A DNA stretch of 64,000 bases. Source: Fragilaria crotonensis. Taxonomy: Eukaryota > Bacillariophyta > Fragilariophyceae > Fragilariales > Fragilariaceae. A program made the translations under genes and the position numbers. The number at the start of each line of letters is the position of its first letter. Position 1 is the stretch's first letter. This document shows positions 4,301 through 56,935 of the stretch, one piece after another. Where the stretch lies: contig JAKSYS010000221.1 of NCBI GenBank assembly GCA_022925895.1, positions 1-64,000 of the forward strand. Reading direction: 5' to 3'. Below the pieces are notes generated by a model, which did no database searches, had not been told where the DNA came from, and was given only the letters and a program-made list of their open reading frames with translations.

Positions 4301-4745
4301 GTGCTGGCGCTTGCAATGCCATTCGAAGCGTGGCGGTGCAAGCGAGATTGACGTGGAGATGATCTTGTGAGCAGCGTTGCGTTGCTGTGTCGTCCATGGC
4401 GCAGGGACGAATGCATCAGGGGCGCCGTCGGCAGGAACGGGATGGTATTTCGGTCGACGTGCTGGCTTTTTGCGTTGAGTTTGCGAGCGACGACTCGAAG
4501 TCCGAACTCTCCCTTGTTGAGCGCATTCGTTGCGTATGGAGAGCGACGCGTGCGAAGGCGTTGCGTCTGACGTTGGAGCAACAACGTTCGCGTCTTCAAT
4601 TCGTCAAGGTCGCGAAGACTTGTCTGCCTTTCGAGGGTTGGTGCGATGGGTGCGTTCCGATGACGTCGTTTGCGAAGACGATAGGGAAGAGGGTCCACAC
4701 CCTTGCGACGTTGCGTTTCACGTTGGGGCTTGGCGAGTGACGTCT

Positions 4746-25921: not shown

Positions 25922-27436
25922 ATGAACCCACCAGTGGTAGTCGACAAGGACGAGAACAAAGTCAGAAGTTCCAACGAGACCGATATAAAATACAAAAGCA
26001 GAAGCAACAACCACAATCTAGTCCACGAAGATGGAATTTATTATCAAACTGGATTTGGAAATTCCTTTGAATCTGAATTGCTACCGGACGCTTTGCCCCG
26101 CGGTCGTAACAATCCACGGTTTGTACCTTACGGACTATACGCCGAACAGCTGAGTGGGACGGCCTTCACTCTCCCACGATATATCAATCGACGCACTTGG
26201 CTTTATCGCATCCAACCCGGCGTGACAGGATCCGCCCACAGCGACTTTGTACTGGCGGACAACCTTCGTTTATTTGGGTCTGCAACGTCTACGGCTGCCT
26301 CCGTGGACGACACACAGCAGGCAAATCCGAATCCAATGCGGTGGAAGCCCTTTCCTTTTTGTGAACGCGATAGCAGCACTTCATTTATTTCAGGACTCAA
26401 GTTGTTGCTCTCCAGTGGGTCACCCGAAGCCAAATCCGGATTGGCCATATATATGTATTCCTTCGACCGGAGTATGAAAGACGAGTATTTCTACAATTCT
26501 GATGGTGATTTCCTTATCGTAGCTCAAACTGGATCGCTCCGAATTCATACTGAATTGGGCAGACTTATCATACATCAGCATGAAGTGTGTGTCATCCCTC
26601 GCGGAATGGTCTTCTCAGTACTCCTCAACGACGAGACCGATCCGCCAACCCGGGGATACGTCTTGGAAACGTACGCAGGGCACTTTCAATTGCCGGAACT
26701 GGGACCGATAGGATCCAATGGGCTAGCCAATGCCCGGGACTTTTATCACCCAACCGCATGGTGCATTTCGTCCCAGACAGATTACAACCGCTCCTGCACA
26801 GTCTTTACAAAATTCGGTGGTCGTCTCTGGGTCCGCCAAGCACCTCACTCACCTTTCAACGTCGTCGCATGGCATGGTAATTATGTCCCCTTCAAATACA
26901 ATTTGAATCGATTCTGTGCCGTCAATTCCGTCACCTACGACCACATAGATCCCAGCATCTACACAGTCCTCACTTGCCCCAGTCCTGGTGGCGGCGAACC
27001 CCTCGCAGACTTTGTCGTATTCCCCCACCGCATCTTGGCTACGGACGACAATACCCTGCGTCCACCTTGGTTCCATCGCAACACCATGTCCGAATTCATG
27101 GGCCTCCTGTCCGGCACGTACGATGCCAAAACAGGTGAGGGCTTTTCTCCTGGTGGTGCGTCGTGGCATCCGTGCATGGCACCGCATGGACCCGATGCGG
27201 AATCGTACCACAAGGCCGTCAAGGCGGGAGATGACAACCAACCATTGCAGCCGGTGGCATATCGAGGAGGAATCGCGTTCATGTTTGAAACAACGTGTCA
27301 GATGCGGGTCAGCGAGTATGCATTGACTCATGCTACTAGGGATACCACTTACGCAAAAGATTGTTGGTCGGGGTTGAAGGATGCCTTTACGGGATGGGAA
27401 TTGTTGCGGAAGCGAGAAACAGATCAAGAGGAATAG
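25922..27436 (+). CDS. HGD: Homogentisate 1,2-dioxygenase
   Basis: ATG at 25922, 504 residues, single exon. It opens with YYQTGFGNSFESE, the hallmark start of the family fold, after a 30-residue Asn/Lys-rich extension. The iron ligands are in place: H385 and E391 in FHRNTMSEFMG and H422 in MAPHGPDAE. The catalytic base is H318 in AWHGNYVPFKYNL. Length is a little above the 445 of the human enzyme because of the N-terminal extension and small inserts. It cleaves the ring of homogentisate to maleylacetoacetate in tyrosine/phenylalanine catabolism, so it competes with plastoquinone and tocopherol synthesis for the same substrate. No targeting peptide is visible, so it is probably cytosolic. Confidence 0.96.
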   Translation: MNPPVVVDKDENKVRSSNETDIKYKSRSNNHNLVHEDGIYYQTGFGNSFESELLPDALPRGRNNPRFVPYGLYAEQLSGTAFTLPRYINRRTWLYRIQPGVTGSAHSDFVLADNLRLFGSATSTAASVDDTQQANPNPMRWKPFPFCERDSSTSFISGLKLLLSSGSPEAKSGLAIYMYSFDRSMKDEYFYNSDGDFLIVAQTGSLRIHTELGRLIIHQHEVCVIPRGMVFSVLLNDETDPPTRGYVLETYAGHFQLPELGPIGSNGLANARDFYHPTAWCISSQTDYNRSCTVFTKFGGRLWVRQAPHSPFNVVAWHGNYVPFKYNLNRFCAVNSVTYDHIDPSIYTVLTCPSPGGGEPLADFVVFPHRILATDDNTLRPPWFHRNTMSEFMGLLSGTYDAKTGEGFSPGGASWHPCMAPHGPDAESYHKAVKAGDDNQPLQPVAYRGGIAFMFETTCQMRVSEYALTHATRDTTYAKDCWSGLKDAFTGWELLRKRETDQEE

Positions 27437-27912: not shown

Positions 27913-29320
27913 ATGGATGCGATGTCCTCCGAGGAGCTTGACGACTCTGAGGACTTTCTGAAGGCTGTCATTGAGTCTTATAAGCCTCCCGGCACTGCCT
28001 CAGGGATCACCAATAACGTTCATCATCCACAGCATCTGTTAGCGCCATGTGAAGAAACGGAATGGGTTCGAAATCACGATGGAAGCATTCTGCTAGATCA
28101 CAACGGCATCCCACTGTCCGTCGCCCGTCTATTGGCCACCAAACCCTTGCGGCACGAACTCTCCTGTCGTCCTGGACCTGGAAATCGGAAACTCACGTAC
28201 CTTTCCGGCGAGGCCGTCACTCGAACTCTGAACGATGCGTTTGGATTTGACGGATGGAATTTGGAAATTCTCTCCACGACAAGGGAGCACATGGCCGAAT
28301 CCAAGGACGGAAAGGTTGCCGTCGCCTACACGGCACGGGTCCGTGTTACGCATCGAAAGTCAGGAACGTACAAGGAAGATTGTGGCGCGGGGGATGCGAT
28401 CGATCGGACGGCAGGAACGGCGATTGCCAACGCTCTCAAGGCGAGCATCACAGATGCCATGAAACGGGCAGCAAGGCATTTCGGAGATAAATTGGGAAAT
28501 TCGTTGTATCAAGGCACATTCAGTATCAACAAGGCGCCGAATACGTTGCAGCAAGCGTTGGATCAGTACGCCATTGATCGAGCAAATACTAAGTTCGGAG
28601 TGCCGACCAATCAGGCTTGGCCTTCTCTTCGGGAGAGCTCTACTGTAGTGGTCAAGACGGCTGCTTCGCCGCCGATTGTAAAGGTGCATCCTATCAAGGA
28701 AACAGTGCCTGTTCAGAACGTCTACCGAAAAGTCGACCCATGTAAGCTGGTAGCGCCAATTCCGAATGCGGGACCTCCTTCTCAAAATGCGTACCAAACG
28801 AAAGCAGCGATACCGCCTCAAGTACGACAGGAGTCACGCAACCATGACAATGTCGCAATCTTGCCCGTGCCCAATAGTGCTGTTGCTTCAGGCCCTGTTC
28901 ACGTGAAACCAACATCATTGCGGACACCCGTGCATGCAATGCCTTCAAAGTTGGTCACGCTCCAACCTACTCCAGCAACAGGGATGTCGTCTATCCCGGC
29001 GGTGACGCCAGGAACCATGCAACCGCCTCAAACACCCGGACAGCGACTTCTCGAGCAACCTCTTTGGATTAAAAGCTGGGCAAGGGTCTCAGTCTTTCCT
29101 TAGCAATTTGGAAAATCAGCAACCATTTAGCACCGATGATGTCAACAGGCCTGGAACGTCAACTGGCTTGCACCAGCAGCAGACACACGCCCAAAGTTCT
29201 GGTAGTGGTCCATTTGCGGGCAAGAAGCGAGACAGCGATGCCGTTCAATCCCACGACGATGCGCCGATAAAACGACCGACTGTCACGCCAATCCATCGTG
29301 TTAGCAACCCGTATGCATAA
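27913..29320 (+). CDS. RAD52: RAD52 homologous recombination mediator (tail in a second frame)
   Basis: ATG at 27913. The N-terminal strand-annealing domain is clear: LTYLSGEAVTRTLNDAFGFDGW, then EILSTT..., ARVRVTHRKSGTYKEDCGAGDA, TAGTAIANALKASITDAMKRAARHFGDKLGNSLYQG. It promotes annealing of complementary single strands and Rad51 loading in the nucleus. The first frame ends at 29103. The downstream frame (from about 29060 to the stop at 29320) continues plausibly with GLKAGQGSQSFLSNLENQQP and a basic end GKKRDSD...IKRPTVTPIHRVSNPYA, which looks like a genuine RAD52-type tail. This needs one base change between about 29040 and 29075; I see no GT-AG intron there. Read as one protein it has about 468 residues. 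The annealing domain itself is intact. Confidence 0.93.
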
Positions 29321-35623: not shown

Positions 35624-37336
35624 TCATGCCTTTGTCCCTTGAACCAACCAGGTACCTCCCAACCACTTCAATGCCTTGCCATGTTGGAACCTTGGGTTGG
35701 ACACAAACCTTGCTCCTTGGTGGACTGCACATGAGATGTCAAGCCTTGAACACTTCTCCAGATAGTTCATCTGACCAATGACACGGCGATAATTGAAGTG
35801 ATCATCAAATGGTGGAGAATCCAGATGCCTGGTGAGAGTCTTGCTTGAAGCTCCTGTGGTTTTCTTGATTGCCACATTCTTCCCATCCAGTCTGAGCTCT
35901 TTGATGACATCATTGATGAGGTGAGGTTGAGAGAGGTTGAAGGTGGTCGCATTGACTCTGTCAATTTGAACTCCAAGAAAGTCTGAGATGTCTCCTTCCA
36001 CTGTAAGGTTAAGGCCAACTGACTTCATCTCTTGGATAATGTCCTCCAACTCTTGTTCATCTGGTCCTGCCAGAATGGAATCATCCGTGTAGAGAACAAA
36101 AACTGACTTCCCTTTGTAGAAGAGGCATTCATCAATCTCACTTGGAATGAAACCAACCTCCTTGAGCTTGTCCACCAGATGCTGGTTCCACACTCTGCCA
36201 GCTTGCTTCTGACCAAAGAGATTCTTCTTCAGCTTGAGGACATAGTCCCCCTCCACCTCAAAGCCTTTTGGGACGGCCATGTAGAGTTCACACTCCACCT
36301 CTGCTTGGGTGTAGGCCAACACAAAATCGATTTGTTTGGTGTGCCATCCATGAATCAAGGTTGTGATGAGCACCATCCTGATGGCTGCCCATGATGCCAC
36401 TGGTGAGAATGTTTCCCAGTAGTTGACACCTTCCTCTTGCTTGGATCCATCAATGTTGAGCCTTGCCTTCCACTTGTAAACTTCTCTTGTGGCAATTCTG
36501 CGCTTGCGCTTCATGGCCCACACTGCTGGAAGAATCTTGGTTCCTGGAGGGACTGATGACCTTGGGACCAACTCCCAAACTTCGTTTTCGGTGTGACTCT
36601 TGACCTCCTTCTCCATTGCCTTGATGAATTCGGCGCGATCTGGCTCCCTCATGGCCTCATGGTAGTACATCGTGTCGGGATCTGCGGAGGCGGCGAAAGC
36701 CAGCATGGGATGCTGCTCTCCCTCAATGTCCATCCACTCTTTGATAGCTTCAAAGGCCACATAATAAGGAAGCTTGTCCTCCAACTTGGCTTCAAAGTTG
36801 TGCCACACATCAAAGACCTTGGATCCTGCCTTGCTGGAAGGTTCATCAGAGACTTTTGTTGATGCAGCCCTGGGATCTTGTTGAGCCTTGGGGACCTCCT
36901 GAATTGGACAGGAAGTTCTTCCCTTGTTCTCCCTCAGAAACTGGAAGTGGTGTTTGAGATGCTTGAGCCTCTCCTCATTGACCGATTCTCCAGGTTCCAG
37001 ATCAAATTCCATGAAGGGGACATCACGTTGCAAACCTTGAGCTTGAGCTGATTGCTTGATGCCTTGAAGCCTGGAAGGTGATGAGGCCTTGAATCCACAA
37101 AGCTTCTGCCATTCTGATGGAGGTGACAGGTTGCCCAGTGACTGCCTGACTGTCTCAAACTTGGGATCAAATGTGACATGAAACTGGGGAGAGACATGGC
37201 CAGTCTTGAGGTTGAGAACAAGAGCCACACTGCGGGCATGCTGCATGGATATGCCAAGGTAGACTCCCATGCGAGCTCTGACCTCCCACTTGGGCAATTT
37301 CTGGCCAGATTGCATCTTGTTGTCGAGGACAAACAC
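35624..37336 (-). pseudogene. copia element 2: integrase end, linker and reverse transcriptase
   Basis: One open frame of about 570 codons. It begins with the integrase C-terminal block (NLKTGHVSPQFHVTFDPKF), then a charged linker, then the RT: VWELVPRSSVPPGTKILP, WKARLNIDGSKQEEG, FSPVASWAAIRM, KQIDFVLAYTQA, NLFGQKQAGRVW and the catalytic box LYTDDSIL near 36080-36096. YTDD in place of the usual YVDD keeps both catalytic Asp residues. The frame is lost at the end of RT, just before RNase H, and upstream where the integrase core is read in another frame. Confidence 0.88.
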
Positions 37337-38238
37337 AGGACATCAAAAGGTTGAAAATGATTCAGATTTGGAGTGACTTCAGACCTTGCAAACAACTCAA
37401 AGGGAGACTTGTGATCCACTCTTCCAATTGTTGGTGTAGAGTTGTGAATTTCATTGGCCACTCTGAGAGCATAAGGCCAGAGATGTGCATCAATAGCCTT
37501 AGGCCACCTGTGCTGAGCATGAATCAACATAGTTCTTGCTTGGTCTTGCAAAGTCCTGATCCTTCTTTCTGCCACAGCATTCTGAAAATGAGCATTGACT
37601 CCACAGAAAGTGATTGTCTGACCTGCTTCCTTGACAGCTGCCATGAACTTGTTCTCTGCAAACCTGCCATTGTCAGCTTGATAACTCTTGACTTGGACCT
37701 TGAACTTGGAAGCATACCTCTCAAAGGCCAGCTTTGCTTCAAGAGTTTCATCTGCATTGGTTGACTTCTGAAGGTGGATGTAGGACAAACCACTGAAGTG
37801 ATCCACAAAGATTGTTGCCACCTTGTACCTTTTCTTGGTGAGCCAACCCTTGATTTGGGCAATGAGCCCTGGAGTACTGGACTCCAACTGATCGATGCTG
37901 ATGCACTGTCCCGGCTCTGAGGCTGTTCGAAGTTTTCCACCTTGTTGACCACCCTTTGGCTTGGTTCTCCATGGTCTTCTGGTGGCCTTTCCATATAAGC
38001 AGCTGGTGCAGGTTGGAACTTGGCACTTGGCCAACTTCTTCGGGAGCAAACCGCGCTTGGCCATGCTTTGCATTTTGGCAGCCGACATGTGATTCAACTT
38101 GTGATGCCAGCGAAGGAACTCTGCAGCAGGGTTCTCATGAACGGCAGTGTCCTCTTCGTCGTCAATGACGACTGGCAAGTCGGTGCGGTCAGTAGCATCA
38201 AGGTCAAATGAGACTGGTGTATTTGGAGGATGACTCAA
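36934..38238 (-). pseudogene. copia element 2: integrase segment of pol
   Basis: The frame carries the zinc-binding domain (HKLNHMSAAKM...CQVPTCTSCLYGKA: H-H-C-C) and the catalytic core: first Asp in CISIDQLE, second Asp in SYQADNGRF, Glu in NAVAERRIRT, followed by LWPYALRVANEIHN. The useful part stops near 37350, where the register changes to the RT frame; codons beyond are shadow. The core and zinc domain are each unbroken. Confidence 0.88.
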
Positions 38239-38367
38239 TCCACCCCTTGGGATGAGGTATCTGGTGCTTCTGGTTGATGAAGAGGTTCCTGACAGTCTTC
38301 ATTTTCATCATCAGGGATGAGATGGGTTTCCATGTTAATGATTGGGTCATCCTCATCCAGTCCCACC

Positions 38368-39177
38368 TCACACATGTTGCAGAAGGTGTTGAAAGCCTTG
38401 TAGCTTGGAGCAGTATACATGGTTGCAATGTTGCCACCCCTGGTTCAACCTCACTGTTTTGGTGTGCTGTCTTTGGGCCCAGTGTAGTTGAATGCTGTCA
38501 TGGTATGTTGCACACCATGTGCCTCTTGGCAAAGGCTTGAAGTCTTGGGCAGTCTGGGCCCAATGCTGTGGAGACAACAGCTTTGAAGGTGAATCCTTGA
38601 CATAGAGCCCATGTGGAATGACAATGTCATGAGGAACTCCTGTATCATCTTCAATTGACCACTTGATAGTCCCTGAGTAGATCTCAGTAAGTGTTCCACC
38701 CAACCCCTTCAACTTTTTGTTGACCCTCTTGAGAGGAGTGATGAAGTCTTTCTTGTCATTGGAAATGCAATAGGATGCACAGTTGTCAATCCTAATAGCC
38801 TTGGAATCAGTATCAAAGCTTGCTGCTTCATCTTGGTGGGCTTGCCTTGCCTTCATTGCAATGACTGCTGTCAGGCAGTTGAGTTGGGTGGAATTCCTTT
38901 TGTATCTTGGCCCTTTGCCCTTCATCCAAGGTCTTGGTCTTGGTTGCATGCTGAAACTCCCATCATGCATCCATGACTTGACATATTCAGACACTGTGAC
39001 TGGGTGTACCTTCCAATTTCTCACCTTTCCTGAGGCCTTGCTTGAATTTGGATTGGTAACCCACACCTGAACAGATTGGACAATGGCCTCCAAGCCATGG
39101 CTGAAGAGGTAGCACACGTCTGCGCACCATCTCTGCCACCACTTGAAAATCCAAAGCCCAATGAACACGCAGTCCAT
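38368..39177 (-). pseudogene. copia element 2: protease segment with unusual D-N-C active-site triad
   Basis: The frame reads AIRIDNCASYCIS at about 38770-38808, the place of the retropepsin triad (normally D-S/T-G). Here the residues after Asp are Asn and Cys. The flap and following block (YSGTIKWSIED, IVIPHGLYV) are recognisable. The N-terminal 40 residues are hydrophobic and Trp-rich (FIGLWIFKWWQRW), in the same position as the hydrophobic Gag tail of element 1. Frame changes separate it from Gag and from integrase (a bridging segment is read at 38235-38420 in a third frame). Confidence 0.7.
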
Positions 39178-43329: not shown

Positions 43330-44585
43330 CTACTCCTCCTGCTCATCATCTTCATCCTCCTCCTGTTTCTTGCAAACATTGGCGGCATACTGGTCACTGA
43401 CCTTGCACTGGACTCCAACATAGTTGGTAATGTTTCCAGAGGCATCGCGCAACGCAGCAATGAAGAACTGATTCCAAAAGGTGGATCCGTCGACACGGTA
43501 ATTCAACAAGCAGACGGACATGTCGGATCCCTCCTCGATGGAACGGCGGATTTTTTCGACGGCCTTGGGGTCGGTTTCGGGACCTTGCAAGAAACGGCAG
43601 TTGCGGCCCAACACTTGGTCGAGAGTGTATCCTGTTAAATTGAGGAATCCTTGAGTGGCGTAGACAATTGGATTGTCGGGGAGCGACGGGTCGGTAACGA
43701 CAAAGTTCTGCTGTGCGGTCTGCAAGGCCTTGATGAAGGAGAAATCCGGGTCATCGAGGACCTTGTTGGCGTCCATGGAGGAGGTGGCAATGAGGCCGAC
43801 CTCGGCGTTCGCGAATTGCTTGCCGAGCAATTCATCGGCCTCCGCGGCACCGAGATGAGAGCGGATGGACTGACGGAGCTTGTCATTCTCGTCCTTCAGG
43901 AGATTAACTGACTGTTGGAGAGACTCGAGAAGGAACTTCTTGCGGATGCGAGAGCGCTTGGCATGTTCGCGATTACGTTCGCTGCGTAAGGGAAGAGGAA
44001 AGGTGAGAATACGAGTGATTAAAAGCTGCGATCGCATGCAGGTGTCTGATCGTGGATCAAGTCATGACTAATGACTGTAACGTACCGACGCTCGACCTTC
44101 TGCTGTTCCGACATTTTACGATCGCCAGACTTGGATGTTCCGGACTTTCGCTTCTTCATGGCATTCATCATTTCCGGCGTTGCGTACTGGAGATGGTGTC
44201 GTTGCTGTGGTGGTTGCTGAAAGGGGACCATATTGGCCGTGCCCCCTGACGCCGGTGCAGCACCCATGGTGAGGGCAGGCTTGCCGTCTTGATCGAGCTG
44301 CGTGGTGGCAATTCCTCCCGCCAAGGGTACAGGAACGGGAAGTCCGTCGGGTCCGATGCGGGAGGCAACGGTGGCGACTTGGGCCTCGCCTGAAGGGAGC
44401 ACTGTCACGTCGGCGCCCTCGTTCTGAAGGTCACTCAAAAAGACCGTGTCTCCGTCAGGTGTGAACATGACGTCTCCGAAGATGTCATCGAGGTTCAGCG
44501 TTGCTGGAGTTCCTCTCTGGGCGACCGCAGCAGAGGCAGCGGAGGACATCCCAGGTTCCGTGGGTGCAAACATTGGAGCGGACAT
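43330..44585 (-). CDS. AUREO1: Aureochrome (bZIP-LOV blue-light transcription factor), AUREO1-like
   Basis: ATG at 44585; exons 44585-44086 and 43981-43330, intron 43982-44085 (GTACGT...GCAG), 383 residues. The intron splits the basic region and the join restores VERRERNREHAKRSR, the DNA-binding helix (N..xxAxxSR). A leucine zipper follows (FLLESLQQSVNLLKDENDKL). The LOV domain spans about 255-365: FVVTDPSLPDNPIVYAT, then GRNCRFLQG with photoactive C295, then NYRVDGSTFWN. Blue light would form a flavin-cysteinyl adduct at C295 and change dimer/DNA binding. The long N-terminal region with a QQPPQQ stretch is typical. Total length matches AUREO1-type proteins of diatoms (about 380); the exact paralog (1a, 1b, 1c) is not certain. 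It regulates cell-cycle onset and photoacclimation in the nucleus. Confidence 0.96.
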
Positions 44586-45722
44586 GGTGTCAATTGAACA
44601 GTCAACAAATGAACTGCGAGAATCAACAATCAACCAAGTTTCGGATTTTTTTATATCGATGTCTGTCGATGACCTCTATCCTTTTCTTCCCATCATGTTG
44701 ATGGTAGAGAACTGGCAAACCCCGAACGCGGCACGCGGCACGGTGTCAACTTTTCCAAAGGATCCAACCTTCAAGATCAGAGACATAATGTGTCTGGCTC
44801 TGCTCCCTTTGTTCTGCGTCGCTAATATCAGAACGTCATGATGAGAAGCGTCTACTAGTAGAGGTAGTGCTAAGTAATGATGCGTCCAACTCCAGTACGA
44901 TAGAGCTGATAGAGTATCAAGTACCAATTACTCGTACACATGCAATGACTGCACATGGATGGCAATAGTACGGAGCCCGCAGTCGCCTGCCATCAAAGAC
45001 CATAAATATTTAGCAAACTCATTCGTAGAGTGGTGTTTTCAGAGTATTTCATGTTTCATGACTCCAGTACAGTACAGTACTCCAGACTCCAGTACCTTGT
45101 ACCTGTGGTACTCAATTCGCAATGACAACATGACAACCATACAGCACAGGGCCTACGAGACTTCTGGTCGCTGTCATGAAAACAAAAAATGAAAATTCGG
45201 GAATTTAACCAAAACGTCGTCAGATTTGCTTTCCACGGAACAACAAAAACTTATAGCTGCCAAATGCTGACACTTGAGTTTGAATATTATAACAAACAGT
45301 GTCAAGATTCTGAATTATGCAAGACAGAGCCAAGAGCGGGACCCCCTGCTCTTGAACCCCAGGTCAATTCAGTTGTCCAATATAATTTTATATGACCTGC
45401 TGACTTGGCAGTTACTGCAATTTGTCCATGGCTAACCTCTGGAGGCGGAGCAGCATAAAGGCGAAGGTTTAAATGCAAAAATCAAGCACAGGAGCACGAT
45501 ACTAAAATGACCATAATGAAAAGAATCTGTGATGCATGTTTGATAAATAATGGACAGACAGCTCATTTATTTTCAGAGCTCAAAGAATTAATTAGATTAT
45601 GCCAAGGCAGTAAAAAACCGCAGTGTATGTGAAGAATGTTCTCCAGATAGTGTAAATTGCAATAATACAATCCTTGCCAAGCAATGCTGTGTAGAGATAT
45701 TCCAGAACCCTGCTGTTGCTGT
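44586..45722. promoter_or_regulatory. Upstream region of the aureochrome gene and left flank of the DNA transposon
   Basis: 44870-45115 contains the GTAC-core word cluster (for example CCAGTACAGTACAGTACTCC near 45064), some 300-530 bases before the start codon. Beyond 45180 the sequence turns AT-rich with no gene. A function as promoter is inferred. Confidence 0.45.
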
Positions 45723-45735
45723 CATCACAAGGTGG
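45723..45735 (+). repeat. Candidate left terminal inverted repeat
   Basis: 13 bp exact inverse of 54881-54893; the next bases are TATATGGTGAC against GTTTTTGTGAG on the other end, only partly alike. Confidence 0.5.
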
Positions 45736-45739
45736 TATA

Positions 45740-46335
45740 TGGTGACTTTTTTAAAAATAAAATGGATTCAATACATATGGTTAGTGGATGGGGATTAATA
45801 AATATAAAATATTTATGACTAACATTTTAACGTGATATTTCACAGTTTAGTATTATACTACACCTTTAAGAGAATACTCAACAAACATCAAAACAAAAAA
45901 TTAATTAAAACAATATTTGTCGATTGCAATCACAATTTGTTTTGTGTTTCAAATTTGTAAATTGGTTTACATGGCTTTTTTGGTTTTTAGCAACGTTATA
46001 CAGTAAATTTGAATCACAATGTAAATTGAATGAATCAATTTAAATGGGTATCTGTCACCATATTATAGTCATTTATAACAATAAAAGATAAATGCTATAA
46101 CTTTATCTGATGAAATGAAATTCTTTAAATTGTGCAGAGTCGTTGTTAAACGTTGCTTACTAGCTTGAAATATTGATTGCTTGACAACAATATGTGTATA
46201 GTTTAAGTTTCTATGTTTAACAATGACGCTGCATGTCGACATCTCCACATTCAAAAGTGGAGTAATCACTCGTTGCGGTTTCGTTTCAGAATGTTATGGT
46301 GATGATCATAATAATTGTGCACCTCAATAAATTGC
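45740..46335. other. AT-rich subterminal region of the DNA transposon
   Basis: About 600 bases of A/T-rich sequence with no open frame of note. The mirrored stretch on the right side (about 54590-54880) has the same character. Confidence 0.55.
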
Positions 46336-46339
46336 GTTG

Positions 46340-47616
46340 TTATTCCAAATCCCAACATGCTTCCACTGGTTCTAATGCTTCTGCCTGCTCTCCATCGGAG
46401 GTGTCTCGACTTCCTTCACCATTTGTTCCTCTCCTTTTCAGTGCAATGCAGTGATTGAGCAGTTCACGCTCCATATCCATGGCTTGTTCACACGTGCGAT
46501 CAGCCTTCACCAAGTGATAGAATTCGTTGTACCTTGCCATTCCTTCGCGGCTCCATCCACCATACTTGCAGTGGCCTTTTTTTGCGCAGTATACTTGCCT
46601 TTCTCCCTTTCCCTCTTGGACTTTTCCTGCTGCCGGCGCCGCTCCTTGGTTGTGGTTCTGCTGGTGGGGTCTCGTGCCGCAGTTGTTCCTCTCGCTGAAA
46701 TGCCTTGAGCCACTTCTCAATATAGTTGTCGTAGAGAAGGAGAGCGAAAGCCTCGTCGCTGATGGTCACCAACTTGCCGTGTTTTGTGGCCGAGCTCGTC
46801 GCCTGCGACACCAATTGCTTACTCTTTTGTACACCCCAGTGCTTCAGGCCACAAACGCACTCAAGAAATGTTCCATAGAACCAGAGGAATGCTTTTTCTC
46901 CTTTCCGTACTTGCTCTCCTCATTTTTTGTAATTCATCAATTGAGAACACATCCATTCTATCTTCCTTGAATTGTTTTAGTTCTCTCATCATGATGTTCT
47001 TCCCCGCCTGCTCGCATGTGCTCCTCTTGCTGTTCAACGCATGGTTAAAAACACTTTCATATAACATCTGGAATTTCACACGATCTCGGTTTGCCACACA
47101 CTCGTGGTCCATCACCTCCTTGAAAGCCTTACCAAACATGTGTTCATTGCTGATAAACTTGACGACTCGAAACATATGTTTTCTGACGTAAGTTGTGACC
47201 CTATCTGCAATGTTCTCCTGGTGTTTTTCCGACATGGACGATTCTTTTGCTGACATACCTCTTACTCGTATCAACCCCTCCAAATTCTGCGCAGCTCCTG
47301 CTGACGATGTTCTTCCACGTTTTGCAGGAACAACATAGTCGTCATCATCATCGTCATCATCGGACGAATGTAATTCCTCGGCACCCCGACAGGGAAGCAT
47401 TTTGTCCAACTCCCTATCCCACTCTTGTTCTTGGTCACTATTTTCTTCTCTTTGCCGCTTTCCTCCTTTTGACGATTCGACAATTTCGTCTTCGCCACTG
47501 CCGCTGTCTTCATCCTCATATAAAGATTCGGAGTCTGATTTGTCAGATACAGTTCCGTTGTTCATGGCTTCAGTTACTCTGTTGTAGTAGTATACAATTG
47601 TGGGAACAAGTTTCAT
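46340..47616 (-). CDS. Transposon accessory protein of unknown function (frame-interrupted)
   Basis: ATG at 47616 (MKLVPTIVYYYNRVTEAM). An acidic, Ser-rich segment with an Asp run near 47340-47360 and basic clusters (GGKRQREE) is followed by a helical region (VRKHMFRVVKFISNEHMFGKAFKEVMDHECV). The frame breaks near 46860 and again near 46600. The continuing frames give SDEAFALLLYDNYIEKWLKAF, then KKGHCKYGGWSREGMARYNEF and a C-terminal helix (MERELLNHCIALKRRG). The GGWSxEG...FN/NE block is one I associate with algal and oomycete transposon proteins, but no biochemical role is known to me. Position inside the element suggests cargo or an accessory DNA-binding protein. Function not assigned. Confidence 0.5.
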
Positions 47617-48460
47617 CGCTTGCGGTACACAAGAAAAGTTTTGAGCGCGAAGCACTTTTGTTCACAACTCCCATTTAAATTTGAAGAGTTGGGCACACAT
47701 GTTGTTTGTATGCTTGACACAGAGTCAATTTGAATGGGTGTGTCGACAGAAATTATTACTAAAGGCACTGTACAATTGTTTGTGGCAAGCTACCGTTGTA
47801 AATAAATATTGCTGTGTCGGGGATTGAAGGCTTACTAGTTATATTCCTGCAATATATCATGATGTGTATACGTTTATATGGCAATATTTTGCCGCTAATC
47901 GTTTTTGTAACCGCCACGATTACTTCGTGGGAATACTCCGATGTTTGCGTATCATGTACACTCACTCGGTAAGATGAAGATGCGCATGTGCTTGGTATAT
48001 ATGATTTGATACTATGTGCTGCGATGCGTCAGTTCTTATTACTAAGGTAAATTACCGTTATCATCTTAAGTACTGGCTGGCTGGTGATGCATTCGACTTG
48101 GAATTTCTGTATGTGACAAGAATGTGTGCCTGAATACATAACGATTTAGCACATCTATGGCTACGGTAGTTAGGGTCTTGCTGCCATGGCAAAATGAAGA
48201 AGATGAAAAAATAAATGACTAACACATGTTTATTTGTCTTTGTACTTAGACAGTTTTGAGGGGGGAAGGAAATTTTTGGCCTGAAGTCCCACATGGGCAA
48301 CGCGTGCCTTGCACGTAGTATTGGTTATACTGGAATCGACGTGAAATGCACTATTTTGCACGAGTTGCTTTCACAACAATTTATGGACATCCACACTGCT
48401 GTTGCACTCTTTGTGCCCAGCACATACGTGAGGTATACCACATTCATGCTTGTTGTCGTC
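47617..48460. other. Spacer between the accessory gene and the oxygenase-like gene
   Basis: About 840 bases between divergent genes inside the transposon. No ORF with recognisable motif. Confidence 0.5.
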
Positions 48461-48690
48461 TGAAGAGGGGAACTGCTTGCTTTTCTGGCGTGTTGGAACT
48501 CTGGTACAATTGCCTTCTCCCCAGACAGGGATTTGCAAATCTGTCCTTTGTGACGACGTGCTGCCTTATCACTCAACGTGAAGAGGGGAATTGCTTGTTT
48601 TTCTGGCGCGTGCGAACTCAGGATTGGTTGTTTCCCCAGACAGGGGTGAACAACTTGTCGTTAGTGATCGCGTTGCCGCCTTATCGTCGG
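48461..48690 (+). repeat. Tandem duplication of about 118 bp upstream of the oxygenase-like gene
   Basis: 48461-48578 and 48579-48690 are two copies of the same unit with some differences: both begin TGAAGAGGGGAA(C/T)TGCTTG, share TTTTCTGGCG, CCCCAGACAGGG and a CTGCCTTATC/TGCCGCCTTATC block. The pair ends a few bases before the start codon at 48698, so it may be a duplicated promoter or leader element. Confidence 0.8.
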
Positions 48691-48697
48691 TATCATC

Positions 48698-50769
48698 ATG
48701 TTTGCAGATCCTTCACGAGATCGCGCCAGGATATCTAGCGCGCGGCGTACGCTTCCGGCGCAGAGCTCTGTTTCAGCCATGGGACGCAATCCGCGTGCGG
48801 TTGGGGTTGGTGCTGCAGGCCATGACATTGCTGGCAGTTCTCTGCCTTTAGATCGGACTGCTGAAGGATTCCTTCCGTCAAAGGAGCGTGTACTTTCACT
48901 GTTGATGCAGGTACTGTTTTTTGATCAGGAGGATTATCGCGAGCGGGTTGCGAAAGCCTTCAGAGATGCCGTGCTGAAACCTCCTCTTCCTCCAATTGGC
49001 GGCGATGATGACAATATCTGCGGCTTTCCTGTCTCATTCTTTCGAGCGGCCGTGGATTCTGTGGGATATCGCATCTGCGACTTCTATCGCATCAATAAGC
49101 TATCAGATATGTTCCACGAGTCCCATGTGAAGCATCTCCCTGGGGAATCTGTCTGTGAAGTGTTTTTCATGGATGTTGTGCTGAATCGTGCAATTGTTCC
49201 CACTACAAGCGAGATTAACAATGGCAATGATGTTCGGGTGATGAGATGCTTCAAACCGGATGATCTTGATGACTCTGTGGACTATCAGTTCCGTGCGTTG
49301 ATAGCTTTCATCCCCAATGCTGGTGTCTTCTACTGCTCATGTGATCGACGACGTGCTGACGCAGGTGTTGAAAAGACGCTTGTTCCTCACGACATGAGTT
49401 GGCTTCGCCTACATCGCAGTGAAGTTTTGGACTCTCAACAACGTCTCGTGTTCCTATGTACACCATTGGTGATGGCCGTTTTGTTAAGCAACTTCATTGT
49501 GGTGGCGGTTCTGATGGCCTTCCAGTTTCGGTGTGGCGCATGACCTACAATATTCTTTGCGACAAACGTGTGATCATTCGTGCCAATCAGTGCGCTGATC
49601 AAGACGGCCCCATGTTGCCCCCCAGATGTTATCTCAGGAGGTATTGGCACTGGAATTCAACTATATTCTTGCGGGATCTAAGTCTGCCCGACTCGGCGGT
49701 CGGCACTACGCTTCGGGTACAGGTTACTTTGACCTTCCATCTTCATGCTTGGTGTTGGATCCCGTGGTTGATCCGATGGTAGACGTTGTGATTGATGATG
49801 CACCGTGTGGGACCTCGGTGGATCGGCAAACTGTGGTGAGGGTGAGGCATACCCTCATGCTGAAAACAGATCCTGTGCCGATGGACGACATGAAATTGAG
49901 AATAGCCCGTCGTGCGTCTTTGCTTTTGAAGATCACGCGGTGTAACACTGCGATTCGTCGGGGCATGCGAACAACTAGTGGGGTCAGGAATACGGGGGGG
50001 TGATGTTGGTAACATGTACGCCATTGGCATGCGTGTGGAGGGAGATGGGGCTACCATGATTCCTTACGCTGCAAACGAAAAGGTTGACGAACTTGTCCTG
50101 CGAGACATGGTTGCTGCTCTTTGTTGCCTTGGCCGTCTGTGTTACCCTGACTTGATGCACTTGATCAAGACTTTGGAAAGCGACTCTGGTGTTCCGATGA
50201 TGTCTCCTATGGACGGAAAGGATGGGGATTGGGTTGGGCGCACTATTGACATGAGTGTCAACCTCGGCAACTCTTCACACTTTGATGTCAATGATTGTTC
50301 GCAGGGCTTTGCTGTGTGGACGGAAGAGATGCCCGGCAAAGCCTCTAATTGGTACTTCATCATGCCAAATGTGTTTGGCACGCGAGCAGATGGCAAACCT
50401 TTCTCTGGGTTGGCTGTGCGCCTCTATCACGGAGTTGCCATCAGCTGGGATGGGCGAGTGCTTCGGCACTGCACTTCCGTTTCCAAACCCGACGGCGAGG
50501 ACAACGCCGAAGTTTTTTCGGGTGGCGGTCAAAGGTTTGACAATCACCTTTACGGAACGTTCACGGCATGCAAAGAGAAGGTTGTTCGGGCGGGCAGGGT
50601 CAATGCATGTGCTGCCATCGTATCATCGTCCACGACGTGCAAGGATGATACGATTGGAGGAGTGACCACACCTTTTGATGATGAGCTCAATCTGGGGATG
50701 GAATTAGTAGGCGTTGGTGCACCTTCACAACAACGGAAGAAAAAGAAGAGGAGAAGAAAGGAGTACTAA
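48698..50769 (+). CDS. Transposon-borne protein with 2OG-Fe(II) oxygenase-like core (frame-interrupted)
   Basis: ATG at 48698. The first frame to about 49440 has a basic N-terminus and an unfamiliar conserved region (SVCEVFFMDVVLNRAIVP; YQFRALIAFIPNAGVFYCSC). Frames then change near 49440, near 49620 and at a run of seven G (49994-50000), after which an open frame runs to 50769. The last part contains NSSHFDVNDCSQGFAVW, NWYFIMPNVFG, then GLAVRLYHGVAISWDGRVLRHC: an HxD and a distal His about 80 residues on, in a double-stranded beta-helix-like arrangement. This fits a 2OG-Fe(II) dioxygenase; similarity to TET/JBP is possible but not proven. The C-terminus is strongly basic (KKKKRRRK), consistent with nuclear or DNA contact. 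A base-modifying role in the transposon's biology is inference. Confidence 0.55.
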
Positions 50770-50821
50770 AGTTTAGAATTTAGCTTGCCGTATGTAACCT
50801 ACCATTGTACTTGTTGAGTAT

Positions 50822-51110
50822 TCACTCGTCGTCGTCATCGTCGTTATCATCCTCGTTCTTGTTGTCATCATCGTTATCATCCGCGTTGTTGTCATCGTCG
50901 TCATTGTCCTCATCATCATCATCGTCGTCGTCGTCCTTGTCATCATTGTCATCCTCTTTGTCATTGTCGTCGTCGTCATCGTCATCGTCATTCTTGTTAT
51001 CATCGTCATCATTGTCATCCTCCTGCTCATCGTCTTCGTCATCATGCTGCTCGTCGTCCTCGTGAACTTCGTTGTCTTCGTCATCCTCCTCCTCGTATTC
51101 AGACTCTAAG
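50822..51110 (-). repeat. Asp/Glu codon low-complexity tract
   Basis: Nearly 290 bases of GAC/GAT/GAA-type triplets on the minus strand, coding for the acidic tail of the transposase. Such tracts are prone to slippage. Confidence 0.85.
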
Positions 51111-54100
51111 CTTTCCTCCTCGTTATTCTTGCAACAATACTGTACAAAATGATCCCATGCTGATGGCCAGCATTCCTCTCTTCTTCGGAATAGGAACAAA
51201 TACTTGTCTGAGTCTCTGTTCCCGAAGTCCGGAATCCCAACTGTGGGAGCAAAGATGCTCCCAACCTCGATGAGGTAAATAGATACCAGCATATTGCCAC
51301 GACCCTCTTCTGGTTCCCTATGAAGTGTGTACAGGCCGATCATATTATTCGGAACAGCCGGATCTGCATCTTCTGCATCGTACGATTCCAAAACCGCATA
51401 CATTCCAGGTTTGAGATTCTTTTGTAGTTTTGTGCGAATACGAGTATTATCTGGGAGATGACGAAGGTCCACAAAGGTGTGAATGAGTCCTGGCAAGGGG
51501 AAATCAAGATTCCAATTGATCATCGCATGATCGCACCAACGTTTCCATGATAGTTTGGATGGCCTCTGTACCGATCTCCTTCCTCAGAGATAAACTCCGT
51601 GAAGCATTGCACAGACTTTGCCAAACCCCTGGGGACATCTGGGCAACAATATTTCATAATAAATTTGGAGATACGAGATGGAAGCCTGTTTTTAGGCGAA
51701 TCATCTGTCGCGCGGGGAGAGTTCCACGCAAACATGATGTCATCACCAGCTGAGGAAGGTTTCTGCGATAGAACAAACCGACGACCAGCAGCACCAGAGG
51801 AAGTTAAAGGGATTGGAGGCTTCTTGGCCTCAAACTCGTCCACATCATTATTGGCAACCAAGATTGCCAAATCCTCATGGTACCGGTGTGCTGCTTGTCT
51901 TGTAAAGGATGCAACACGCTTCTGAGTATTGCGAGATGTATTCTTTGCAAGTGGAATGTGTGCAGATTCTGCATATGATGAGTTTACCACGTCGGGGACA
52001 CCATGATCAAGTATATCCTCACTGATGTGAAGCGCAAGGTGCATCTTGATTGTATTGTTCCTCATTCCCGACAACCGTGGGCAAATATTGGCAACATTGC
52101 GGATTAGCCATCGAACACCAGTGGCCAACCTTATCACATGACTACGCCTTATTGTCGGTTGCTTCATCCATTGATGCCATTGCAGCAGACAAGAAATGAT
52201 GTGAATCCAATCTGCGGTGTGCTTGGGACACCCTAGTTTAGGCAGTGGGGGTGGTACATACTTCACTTCCTCCTGCTTCGCATCGTGCATCGCAGCATCA
52301 TTCCCTGCTTCCACAGTTGCCGACGGCCGTTTCTGTTGTCCCTTTCTTTCTGCAGGCTTTCCGTTCTCGTTCTTCTTCCATCCCTTTCCATTCGCAGCCT
52401 TGTTCTTTGACTCTTTAGGAGGGGGAAAGATTTGTCGGAAACTACTAGTGTGCAATGCGAAGAGTTTGACTAGGAGACATCCTGGTATCTCATGACCCAT
52501 CAGATTAGATCCCGTGGAAAAACCCTTCGGAAAATTTGTACGTGGTAGGTCGCGGTCACTTTTCCGTACCATGGCACTTCCAATGTCTGCGCAAAGAGCG
52601 TCATAATGTTCAAGCGCAGCCGATTTCTTCCCTTTCTTTGCGCCAGCTTGGTGTGCAAAGGATTCAAGGCAGTACTTGAACCACCCAAGTGTGATCAAGT
52701 GGAGGATTTCACCAGGACAAGCTCCAAAAATTCCTCTCGCGTTGTGCTGGCCAAACCGAACTTTGTTAAAGCCGTTAACAACATAATTTTGTGATAGTGC
52801 GCGTAAGGATTCAACATCACCCTCTCTCACCAAACCTCCAACATGACTTGGCTTCCTGTGGCGGTACACAGATTTTGAGTAACCAGTCATCTCTGTGGGA
52901 CATTCGCATGCACGGCATAGTTGTTTGATTTTTGCAAATCGTGCGGTGTAGTGCCCGCAAAGACGATCGTGACCCTCCGTGTCACCAATTATGAAAGGGA
53001 CAAAGGGGTGAAATACGACGTCGTGGACAGTCTTCTTGTATTGAAGCTTCCACTTGAAGCCTTTGTCCTGCAAACTTAAAAACCTGATGCCGAAAGAATA
53101 AATGCAATCTGCATGTGATACTCATTCAACATGTATGTAGGCCAGGTGACGCCTTTTAGGTTTTAGAACATTGCTCACAGTCGCAACACCAGGAGGAAGG
53201 TCATTGGGTGCCTCATTGTAATCAACGTTGAGGTCAACCTTCTGAGCCTTACGTGAGGCACTCCCGTGATAGATGTAACCCAAAATTCGCATTGCAATGG
53301 GTAAACGGCGAAACTCATGCTTCAATAACCCGTGAGAAATTGTGATTGGCTCCATCTGGAGTCTACCGGAAGGTCAATGTGCGTCTTGTCCATTGCAAGC
53401 ACACAAGGAAGTATCATGTCAGACTGCGGATTCTTCACCAATTTCTTATAGGTTTCTCGATAACACCGACCACTGTTGATGTCACCAATTACTGATGTCC
53501 TCGCATCAGGCACAGCAAATGGATCCCCTGTTCATGAAACATAAAACACTCGTCCTTATTGAGGAACGGCATGACAGCAATGACGCAAACACTTGGCGTG
53601 CATCAAATATACCATCGTAACAATACGCTTTGAATAGGGCAGATACAACTTCTTCTCCTTGGGAACCAAACCATGCATGTTATAACGACTGAACAACATC
53701 TTTGTAACCGTCTCACGTGATGGCTGGCAACTGGTCTGAAATTGGTGGCCATTTTCATTTGCTTTCGCGGCCCAGTTCAGTATGTACTTAAACGCAGAAA
53801 GTGGCGCCTTCAAGTCTTTTAGGAGTTGAAGCAACTCAATATGAACCTTCTCTTCACAAGAGAATTTGGCCAGCGAGGATAATGGATTTGACTGAAGGCG
53901 GAGGAGTTCCTCGTACAATTCAAGGACTCCTTCGTCAGGGTCTGTCGTTCCGTTCTCAACCAAATCAGGTGGCGTCGTCAACGACTCTTCCTCACCAAAA
54001 GGATTGACGTCATCGTCGTCGTCCAATTCATGCTCATCGGGGTCATCGTCACCATCTAGTGCTTCAACAGAAGCAGCACGACCAGCATCCTGAACAGAAC

Positions 54101-54389
54101 TGAATTCGAATGGTGCAGAAAATCGTTGACGACTGTGACCCTCCTGGTGTCCACCAGTACTTACTTGTCCTGTGAGGATATGTGAGGACAACGAAGCGTG
54201 GTTTTGCGCGGCCTTGGCAGCACTCCTGTTAATCAAAGTACCACCAATACCAGCAGACAGATCAATTGTGCTCTTCCGAGAAGCATAAATGCTGTTGCAA
54301 ACAAGATTGTGATTCAAGTGTACCTGGATTCGCTTGAAGGGTTTGTGACATCCGTCACACAACGTAGTAGAGGATGTGCGTGTTGGCAT
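50822..54389 (-). CDS. Transposase of KDZ/Plavaka type (frame-interrupted)
   Basis: ATG at 54389. The N-terminus has a zinc-finger-like CDGCHKPFKRIQVHLNHN..C, then an acidic linker. The core includes CVLAMDKTHIDLPV (likely first catalytic Asp), EPITISHGLLKHEFR..AMRILGYI, PFIIGDTEGHDRLCGHY (second Asp region) with a Cys pair RACECP, IFGACPGEILHLITLGWFKYC, and a late block NSSYAESAHIPLAK. These are the landmark blocks of Plavaka/KDZ-type transposases. The 51523-50822 frame continues with FPLPGLIHTFVDLRHLPD and MYAVLESYD, also family-like, and ends in a 100-residue Asp/Glu tail. Breaks: near 53530-53620 (stop in frame, perhaps an intron), near 53360 (one-base change), and at 51520-51523 where the stop and next ATG overlap as ATGA. 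Function: DDE transposition of the element. Confidence 0.72.
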
Positions 54390-54589
54390 GTGAATCCTTG
54401 TAAAGAGAGAAGCAATGCACAGAATTGTCGAAGATTCAACAATGAACTCAAAAGATCACTGGACCTGTTGAACAAATGCCAGAAATACGGTAAAAGTTTT
54501 AGACAACGCCATTCACTGTGCCTCGGAAACCTAACTGGCGAGTATGCCTCAATATCAGTGAATTTAGAAAACACCAAGTCAAATTTTTG

Positions 54590-54880
54590 AAAAAATGGTT
54601 GCTGCAGTGAAAATCAATTTGTTATATCCATCACTTTGTTGATTCAATCAGAAATATATTTATAGTTTATACTTTTTTGTTGATATTGAACCATATAGAT
54701 TGATTATAATTCGAGAATTCACTGATAAAATTTGATAATAGAAATATTTTAGTATTATATCATTATAACATGTAGAAAAAACCAACTATATATAACTATT
54801 GACTATTTAAGTCTAAAAGTAACCACTTTAGTAAACATAAACCGTCATTAATGACTACATGTATATCAACTCACAAAAAC
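54590..54880. other. AT-rich right subterminal region of the DNA transposon
   Basis: A/T-rich, non-coding, symmetrical in character to 45740-46335; lies between the transposase start and the right inverted repeat. Confidence 0.5.
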
Positions 54881-54893
54881 CCACCTTGTGATG
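54881..54893 (-). repeat. Candidate right terminal inverted repeat
   Basis: CCACCTTGTGATG, exact inverse of 45723-45735. Confidence 0.5.
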
Positions 54894-56935
54894 CGTAATA
54901 AATGACTGCTAGATGAAATGAAGTAGCAATAGAGAAACAGCTGGCAAATAGGAGTTACCTTGAGGCGTGTCCATGTCGAGAGAAAAAACTGGTCTGCAAA
55001 ACTGACCCTTAGGCCATTTTTTTCTAGACCGTCCATATTTCTCTTCAGGAACAAGGTGTTACTTGAAAACAAACTAGTTTGAACTGACCAAACTTTATGT
55101 TTCAAAGTTGACTTGATCAGCACTCTCAGCCTTATCAACCTACCGCAACCAAAGTCATTGAAAATCATGGCTTGCAATATTTCGAATCAATGAGGGATAA
55201 AGTAGTAGTACTGTCCTTTGATTGATTCTTCTTGCTCCCATTATCTCTGATGGCATCTTTGATTAATCTGTCACTGATTTCTTGTCAACATTCATTCAGG
55301 ACACTCTGTTTTCAGATAATACACGCTCATATTGAGTTTCTAATCAATGAGTTCCTTGGTATTGCTTGGTAAACATTGGATTGCTCTGATCCATAGCATC
55401 CCAGAGCTGCTTGGCAAGGTCCATGCAATTGTTGATATACTTCTTAAAACTTGCTTACAAAGGCGTATAACTGTTGTCAAGAGAAGGCCTCTCTTGAAAA
55501 GACCTTGCTGCCTGCAACCTTCCTCAATTTGTTGTGGCGGCATGGCACCCCACTTGAATGGAGAGCCAGATGTTCCTTGATTCATGGCAATTGGTGTCTT
55601 GGGCAGGCACTGTTGCAAATTTGGAATTGTTTTGACCTGCCGTTACCACTGTTAATTGTGGGTGACTTCAATGATTTGACCCTAGAAGGAAAAAATGTTT
55701 CACTATTGTTGGATTGATCACCATTTTGGTCATCTTTCTTGAGAAGTCTGATCAAATAGCATTGTCATTGGCATCACAATTGTCACAACAATCAGCAGCA
55801 ATCATGCCCTTAGCTAAGTTTCACAAATAACCATTCCCCTGACGTACCAATTATAATCATGAATGGTCTGCCCTTACGGAAGTGTCCCACAAAAGGCACT
55901 TTCAGCTTCTTTGACACATGATGCAAGTGCCTTCATCCAATCCTGTAGAACTTCACATGCTTCATGTGCCTTAATACATACTCCTAGTAGTATCATGTTT
56001 ACAGAATAAACAGATCAGGGTCAAGCCCTGATGTACCAAGAGTTCGATATGCCACAGCTACGGAATGCCAAACTACCGTCAACCATGTTCACGCTACTGG
56101 CAACTGAACATTACCACTGTAGGGTGAAGGTGAACCTGCACTGGCCGATAAGTTCATGTCCATGGTACATTTTCTTATATCATAGTAGTTGTACTCGGAG
56201 TACTAAGTACTAAGTACCACGTACTTGTACTGTTGTACTGAACTCCAGCCCATTCAGGGAGACACAGGGGGGAGTTGTCGTTCCTAACGGTATGATACAC
56301 ACCATGCCGCGTGCTACGAGTTACCATGTTCGTACTGGAGTACTGGTGTACCTGGTACCAGGTACGATTGTCCTCAGATTATGACATCGAAAATGACACG
56401 AAGACGAAACTTAATTCGAGAATAGTTCGTACATACTGTTGATTGTTGATCATCAACATAAAAATGAATACTACCGGTAGTAAACTGTAAATACTGCGAC
56501 GCTGCAAAAACGTGTTCCTGGCCACCAATCGGTGCAATAGCTGTACTTATGTTTCGTGCATGGTACGTGTACTGTCGCAGACAGCTTCCTTCGGGATTCG
56601 GATTCGTTCCGAGTATTGAGTACGTATGTCAATACTCTAGGTGCAGGACTGATCATCAACAGATTTTCAGGGTGACGTGGTTGCACGCAGATGGCACCGG
56701 AGACATATTTAGCCGTTCAGAACAAGAAGTCGCGAATACCCAGAATTGCGTACGGGGTAACGAATGTATCTTTCTCTGTCATTCCCTCACATTTCCTACC
56801 CGTAGTGGCGCTTCATCTAAGTTGACCTTCGCTACATCTGGCAAGGTATTTTGATCAGAATCAATCCATCAATCCGCAGGACGCACCAATGTATTCACAA
56901 CACATTCCAATACAGCAACCATTTGTTAAGAAACC
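54894..56935. other. Gene-poor spacer with possible copia relic and GTAC cluster
   Basis: About 2 kb. A weak copia gag-like relic is noted separately at 55340-55620. A strong GTAC-word cluster lies at about 56185-56370 (for example GTACCTGGTACCAGGTACG), upstream of the gene at 56936. No other gene. Confidence 0.45.
55340..55620 (-). pseudogene. Possible copia Gag relic
   Basis: On the minus strand one frame reads CMDLAKQLWDAMDQSNPMFTKQYQ, which resembles the LWxAMxxS helix region of copia Gag N-terminal domains, next to a 92-codon open frame in another register. It is short, frame-broken, and without LTRs nearby. Unrelated chance similarity is quite possible. Confidence 0.3.

Follow-up and report, generated by a model that had tools for sequence, protein, structure and literature searches.

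A 64,000-nucleotide stretch of the genome of the diatom Fragilaria crotonensis (contig JAKSYS010000221.1; the whole analysed stretch is hereafter called the window) contains a 9171-bp Plavaka-type DNA transposon at positions 45723–54893, with the termini CATCACAAGGTGG...CCACCTTGTGATG. The window copy represents, in decayed form, a three-gene cut-and-paste transposon of the Plavaka type (CMC group), in which the transposase gene is accompanied by an accessory gene and by the gene of a putative TET-like DNA oxygenase (Table 1). Our reading as a whole, a three-gene Plavaka transposon with a TET-like oxygenase that would protect it from silencing, has in our estimate a probability of about 0.75.

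The ends of the element are defined by an inverted repeat and by comparison with other copies. The inverted ends (45723–45748 and 54868–54893) are 26 nt long and 81% complementary, with the outer 13 nt perfect, and their end points are common to other copies. The matching inverted ends reported in a preliminary description of the sequence are therefore confirmed. Copies were sought in the 62.1-Mb genome assembly (881 contigs) that contains the window, and nine close copies (L025–L033) were fetched. Five of them (L025–L029) are near full length, with alignments that begin and end within 5 bases of the window's ends and flanks that are unrelated; four are partial. The four other copies with both ends whole measure 9316–9333 bp, and all four are flanked by 2-bp target duplications (AT, TC, AA, and AA). 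In the fifth copy (L027), the left end is altered. The window copy is without a 2-bp duplication (GT at 45721–45722, CG at 54894–54895). The copies in other flanks share end points and have 2-bp duplications, indicating that the element is real and that its ends are true. The five near-full-length copies are 97.3–98.0% identical to the window in BLAST blocks, and pairwise identity among the six long copies is 98.7–99.6% (gaps excluded). This low divergence indicates that the window's element family is young.

Table 1 Features of the Plavaka-type element in the window.
Feature	Positions	Strand	Remarks
Whole Plavaka-type element, 9171 bp	45723–54893	.	Shared end points in copies, target duplications
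Left terminal inverted repeat, perfect outer 13 nt of imperfect 26-nt repeat (CATCACAAGGTGG)	45723–45735	+	
Right terminal inverted repeat, perfect outer 13 nt	54881–54893	-	
Accessory gene, broken pieces (46340–46765, 46500–46919, 46861–47661)	46340–47661	-	
Putative TET-like oxygenase gene, broken pieces (48668–49543, 49423–49782, 49599–50003, 49930–50769)	48668–50769	+	
HxD iron-ligand motif (His 50278–50280, Asp 50284–50286)	50278–50286	+	Asp at His+5 50293–50295, Trp at His+13 50317–50319
Distal iron-ligand His (50467–50469) and Thr at His+2 (50473–50475)	50467–50475	+	
Acidic C-terminal transposase frame, in a different frame from 51520–53121	50822–51583	-	
Plavaka-type transposase, N-terminal and core pieces (53556–54455, 53122–53373, 51520–53121)	51520–54455	-	

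The landmarks from which the three genes had been recognized by eye are all present. The transposase blocks IIGDTEGHDRLCGHY and CPGEILHLITLGWFKYC are located in the minus-strand frame 51520–53121, the motifs NSSHFDVND and SWDGRVLRHC in the plus-strand frame 49930–50769, and the accessory frames at 46340–47661. The oxygenase, transposase, and accessory frames are all interrupted in the window copy, which is a point against our reading. Long uninterrupted frames do occur in related families of this genome, and among the close copies one (L025) has a 642-aa frame open across most of the oxygenase gene and another (L028) a 469-aa open accessory frame (L028:7634–9040).

The transposase belongs to Plavaka rather than to the KDZ (Kyakuja–Dileera–Zisupton) group, with both of which it had been associated. 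The scanned transposase pieces of the window match no Pfam family. The Pfam Plavaka family PF18759 matches an intact relative (L036) with 31.8 bits, above the cut-off of 26.3, and scores below the cut-off in the other two intact relatives (22.3 bits in L035 and 19.7 bits in L034). Termini of the form 5'-CATCA..TGATG-3' are present in the window and in four other copies of its family; they were not found in nine loci of other Plavaka families, where the 9.9-kb stretches may not contain both ends. According to section 3.2.2 of a survey of fungal transposons, PlavakaB elements have the termini 5'-CATCA..TGATG-3' and a target duplication of 2 or 3 bp (PMC12730594). The Plavaka assignment follows from the PF18759 match in L036, with which the ends and the 2-bp duplications agree. 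The KDZ part of the earlier label is rejected. No KDZ family is among the Pfam matches (E ≤ 1) of the three intact relatives or of the window pieces, Plavaka is matched instead, and the duplications are 2 bp in four of four copies, in contrast to the 7 bp given for Kyakuja and the 8 bp given for Zisupton in the same survey (PMC12730594). The element does resemble KDZ elements of fungi in one respect, as these are described there as carrying TET/JBP genes too. A second, distant transposase clade was found beside another oxygenase copy (L045), in a layout common with the window's clade. It is 25% identical to L036 over 339 residues (96 bits), and no Pfam transposase family matches it.

The oxygenase gene recurs beside transposases throughout the assembly. 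All locus counts are lower bounds and include probable alleles (the pairs C22/C40, 99.2% over 9.8 kb, and C134/C340, 99.4% over 9.5 kb). The window's C-terminal oxygenase frame has 147 genome matches, which merge into 137 loci. An oxygenase locus lies within 12 kb of 50 of the 72 transposase loci of the window's clade (clade 1), in convergent orientation in 49 cases; a second query raises the clade-1 loci to 74. Counted from the oxygenase at a distance of up to 10 kb, 53 of the 137 loci are near a clade-1 transposase (51 convergent), whereas uniform placement gives an expectation of 3.3, and 16 are near a transposase of the second clade (14 convergent). The three-gene order was counted at a distance of up to 8 kb, with N-terminal oxygenase matches and the second clade added (162 oxygenase, 144 transposase, and 77 accessory loci). 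Both partners are present at 43 oxygenase loci, 37 of which share one order, namely accessory gene (divergent), oxygenase, and transposase (convergent). Further copies with the same gene set, which the preliminary description had proposed to seek, thus exist in the same genome.

These counts bear on whether the oxygenase is simply a host gene beside which a transposon landed. In favor of such a chance neighborhood, the search for transposases of three kinds left 49 of the 137 oxygenase loci without one inside 10 kb, and some copies may stand alone. Likewise, 23 of the 74 clade-1 and 54 of the 70 second-clade transposase loci have no oxygenase within 10 kb. Since so many loci of both genes are without the partner, the oxygenase is often, but not always, part of the element. 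However, the linkage is far above expectation, the convergent layout is fixed, the boundaries are shared among copies, and the same gene is shared with a second transposon superfamily (below). We therefore consider the chance-neighbor explanation refuted for the oxygenase family, its probability being negligible.

The coding sequence also appears to be under constraint between families. Three of the 28 family pairs with intact frames have a synonymous divergence (dS) below 2.5 and were used; their ratios of nonsynonymous to synonymous divergence (dN/dS) are 0.19, 0.15, and 0.17 at dS values of 1.6, 2.3, and 2.2, respectively, values that are near saturation and to that extent weaken the point. 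The other 25 pairs have dS above 2.7 or undefined.

The accessory gene accompanies the oxygenase in the Plavaka layout. Its 104 genome matches merge into 77 loci; 64 of these have an oxygenase locus no more than 8 kb away, in divergent orientation in 61 cases. The protein has 151 homologues, and the alignment contains 82 of the best 120 of these. In the model predicted for one accessory protein (P0192) with 81 relatives, a mostly helical region at residues ~160–440 is confident and the N-terminal third is of low confidence. No known fold is recognized for the model in fold searches. One relative (P0224) carries the label of a Culicoidibacterales (bacterial) metagenome bin; it may come from a misbinned contig.

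The oxygenase gene occurs with both Plavaka and MULE transposase types. A MULE transposase domain (PF10551) lies within 10 kb of 27 of the 137 oxygenase loci, with 4.0 expected under the same uniform placement; at six of them a clade-1 transposase is nearby as well. At 15 of the 27, the oxygenase is divergent from the MULE domain at a spacing of 3.85–4.23 kb. In one such locus (L046), a Ulp1-type protease domain (PF02902; 34.0 bits, cut-off 20.7) and the MULE domain (PF10551; 31.6 bits, cut-off 27.6) are in one frame, divergent from the oxygenase gene. The segment L043:6758–7483 belongs to the same element family as L046 (98.6% over 2.6 kb). The neighboring segment L043:932–5764 is an element that measures 4833 bp, is bounded by perfect inverted repeats of 26 bp, and contains a Ulp1-type protease (25.0 bits, cut-off 20.7) and the oxygenase; it has no visible transposase and is perhaps a non-autonomous MULE relative. 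In addition, a MULE-type oxygenase element abuts a truncated Plavaka copy of the window's family (L030:9365 and L031:9307 versus L043:6158). Here, an insertion of one oxygenase-carrying transposon into the other, or a recombination between the two, seems to have taken place, and the C22 and C40 versions of the abutting elements are probably alleles.

A maximum-likelihood tree was built from 37 oxygenase domains (31 different), hand-picked from loci and homologues. In it, the window oxygenase is placed beside two rows labelled MULE (96/91) rather than among the other Plavaka families. Rows with the MULE label, three in all, fall in two places, which requires the label to have been gained or lost at least twice across well-supported branches; long branches are flagged in the tree. 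The labels themselves differ in their basis. That of L046 is firm, as both of its domains score above their cut-offs. That of L043:2758–5010 reflects its Ulp1 gene only, and that of L044 reflects a sub-threshold SWIM match (15.8 bits, cut-off 19.6) together with reading by eye. Moreover, transposase-type labels cluster no better than many shuffles (for MULE, 78 of 500 shuffles are as low). As only one of the three MULE labels is strong and the clustering is like that of shuffles, any number of transfers between superfamilies drawn from this tree is tentative.

To examine the fold, we use the predicted model of a full-length relative, whose identity to the window gene is ~55% where the two match. 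The model is a beta-helix with an HxD...H triad. In Foldseek, all 24 matches at E ≤ 0.001 are TET2, CMD1, CcTet, or NgTET1, and the same four proteins occupy the first 16 rows in VIA-align. Among these TET-family rows, identity is highest for the CMD1 chains (15–16% versus 7–12%). The preliminary description had anticipated a beta-helix and an iron triad, and the predicted relative has both, with its strong fold matches to TET-family DNA oxygenases. FTO, ALKBH3, AlkB, and PHD2 also match in VIA-align, with lower Z. As the wider superfamily is broad, an oxygenase in a transposon might act, like other members, on RNA or on a protein of the transposition complex. The lower Z of these matches and the restriction of the strong ones to TET-family DNA oxygenases make this an improbable alternative to a DNA substrate.

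Several observations run counter to the TET assignment. The folded protein is a relative and not the window copy. The Foldseek TM-scores are modest when normalized by target length (0.44–0.46 for TET2 and 0.52–0.55 for NgTET1) and are 0.18–0.28 by query length over the 24 hits, and the alignments are loose (root-mean-square deviation 4.5–14 Å). A match to TET/JBP profiles, a check proposed in the preliminary description, is not obtained: none of the 45 family members matches the Tet_JBP profile PF12851 at E ≤ 1. In the genome, PF12851 has no match at E ≤ 10, in a search in which 14 control genomes gave one sub-cut-off match and no positive control. The family profile, searched against the PDB, finds no TET chain. 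However, the fungal PE-type oxygenase is reported to have been assigned to TET/JBP by structure as well (PMC12730594), and we therefore do not make membership of the group depend on a profile match. Taken together, the predicted protein is very probably a transposon-borne TET-like oxygenase.

To examine the putative active site, we use an alignment of 113 rows, composed of 110 of the 117 proteins of one homologue set (the seven weakest dropped) and three of the 71 proteins of another; column counts refer to rows with a letter in the column (85–105 per column). Of the 89 rows in which the triad columns and column 523 are filled, 84 have the complete triad of His518, Asp520, and His581, and 82 of these 84 have Asp523 too. 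In CMD1, the iron ligands are His345, Asp347, and His397, the base is contacted by Asp350 and Arg418, and Thr399 is among the vitamin C contacts (PMC7854593). By spacing, Asp523 at His+5 (89 of 95 rows) corresponds to CMD1 Asp350, Trp531 at His+13 (87 of 92 rows) to CMD1 Trp358, and Thr583 at the distal His+2 (83 of 91 rows) to CMD1 Thr399.

The remaining positions are mapped by the range end points of VIA-align. The end points for TET2 and CMD1 place TET2 Arg1896 and CMD1 Arg410 near column 607, which contains Leu in 77, Val in 7, and Ile in 2 of 88 rows; by this mapping, columns 605–609 have no conserved Arg (the majority residues are N, H, L, Y, and G). Lys615 (86 of 88 rows) falls near CMD1 Arg418 and TET2 His1904. 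The stacking aromatic would fall near column 613, which is mostly Ala. Because the end points for NgTET1 disagree for the last strand and column 613 is mostly Ala, the register of strand VIII is uncertain by some residues.

Two chemistries can be considered for a TET-like oxygenase of this kind. In a canonical TET-type reaction, the enzyme would use 2-oxoglutarate and oxidize 5-methylcytosine (5mC) to 5-hydroxymethylcytosine (5hmC) and further, and the silencing mark would be erased. The lack, as mapped by range end points, of an Arg at the TET2 Arg1896 position (columns 605–609; L, V, or I in column 607) argues against it, as does the Trp at His+13, which by spacing matches CMD1 Trp358. In CMD1, this Trp is reported to replace Arg1896 of TET2 and is described as clashing with 2-oxoglutarate, and the Arg that CMD1, a homologue of TET, has at the Arg1896 position makes no contact with the co-substrate (PMC7854593). 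We nevertheless entertain the canonical reaction as a tentative option. In a CMD1-like reaction, ascorbate would be used and 5mC would be hypermodified, for example to 5-glycerylmethylcytosine (5gmC), so that the mark would be masked rather than erased. The Asp, Trp, and Thr at CMD1 spacing, the Lys near CMD1 Arg418, the lack of a conserved Arg at the 2-oxoglutarate position, and the high rank of CMD1 by identity are consistent with this chemistry. Against it, residues are mapped by spacing and range end points, not by a residue-level structural alignment, and the equivalents of CMD1 His249, Ser335, Ser414, and Phe416 are not established. Asp at His+5 does not discriminate between the two, because NgTET1 has Asp234 at this position. 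Thus, with, by spacing, a Trp placed as in CMD1 and no Arg at the 2-oxoglutarate site of TET, a CMD1-like, vitamin-C-using chemistry is a live possibility, if a doubtful one. The fuller proposal, in which two diatom transposon superfamilies encode a CMD1-like enzyme that uses ascorbate, hypermodifies 5mC, and coats their own DNA, as a new branch of the TET family, seems to us rather unlikely.

The sequence data also bear on whether the host would offer a substrate. The genome contains 13 matches to the C5-methyltransferase family PF00145, the best of them on a contig (C869) that also holds a Plavaka locus, and a host methylation system is likely. Among the six copies of the window's family, transitions are found at 28 of 846 CpG sites and at 40 of 3372 other C/G sites (odds ratio 2.9, p = 8e-5), and transversions at 10 of 846 and 24 of 3372, respectively, without a clear excess (p = 0.19). 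The CpG transition excess fits methylated CpG in the element. It was counted in the copies of the element alone and could reflect a general mutational bias. In the diatom Phaeodactylum, where DNMT5a is lost, methylation is reported to be globally depleted and young transposons to be overexpressed (PMC9998398), and transposon genes of F. crotonensis are reported to rise at high pH (PMC9732472).

We propose that the oxygenase would flip out and modify methylated cytosines on the element or nearby, and that the element would thereby escape the silencing by 5mC to which diatoms subject transposons, the mark being weakened or masked. The accessory protein may recruit or regulate the oxygenase, which is a guess. 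An oxygenase that acts on methylated DNA and counters host silencing had been suggested in the preliminary description too; we infer the substrate, the co-substrate, and the benefit to the element, and regard the anti-silencing role as somewhat favored.

TET-carrying Plavaka elements (PlavakaB) and other TET-carrying DNA transposons are known in fungi (Kojima 2025, PMC12730594). The element described here resembles fungal TET-carrying PlavakaB in its Plavaka-type transposase, its CATCA..TGATG ends, its 2-bp duplications, and its internal oxygenase of predicted TET/JBP fold. It resembles the fungal TET-carrying transposons more generally in that the oxygenase is common to more than one transposon superfamily, and the transfers of fungal TET genes between superfamilies reported there resemble the sharing between Plavaka and MULE. 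The differences are the diatom host, the lack of a Tet_JBP profile match, the conserved third gene, and the HxD motif, where the fungal PE type carried by Plavaka has HxE. In addition, the second superfamily in the diatom is MULE, here combined with a Ulp1-type protease, and the abstract of the survey does not name this lineage (PMC12730594).

Unlike CMD1, reported as the 5gmC synthase of Chlamydomonas reinhardtii (PMC7854593), the diatom oxygenase is repeated and lies beside transposases at 88 of 137 loci. It is 16% identical to CMD1, whose strand-VIII Arg and Phe are not evident in it. Identity to human TET2 is 11%, and an Arg at the Arg1896 position is absent by spacing. Full-text literature searches, in which subscription journals were mostly outside coverage, found no report of a TET-carrying transposon in diatoms among the papers listed. 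TET-carrying transposons themselves are known from fungi; what appears new here is the host group, the oxygenase branch, the third gene, and a further superfamily.

The rest of the window contains several recognizable frames. Those at 43330–44675 adjoin the element, and frame 43331–44061 has bZIP and PAS domains. This combination is that of the aureochromes of photosynthetic stramenopiles, and we take the gene beside the element to be probably an aureochrome. By eye, two Copia-like retrotransposon regions are seen in the frames at 503–6605 and 35624–39177, frame 25922–27436 reads like a homogentisate 1,2-dioxygenase, and frame 27913–29103 reads like a Rad52 homologue.

An alliance between a TET/JBP-type oxygenase and a transposon in a diatom implies that such alliances arose or spread more widely. 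As the oxygenase is invisible to the sequence profiles used, other 'hypothetical' transposon genes may hide DNA-modifying enzymes. Testable enzymes are at hand in the intact relatives, both those of F. crotonensis, such as the 747-aa frame of contig C529, and those of public metagenomes. If the CMD1-like reading is true, no earlier case is known to us of a transposon enzyme by which 5mC is hypermodified instead of erased, and this would be the first. Algal transposons, like fungal ones, may bring with them a tool to undo or change the silencing marks of their host.

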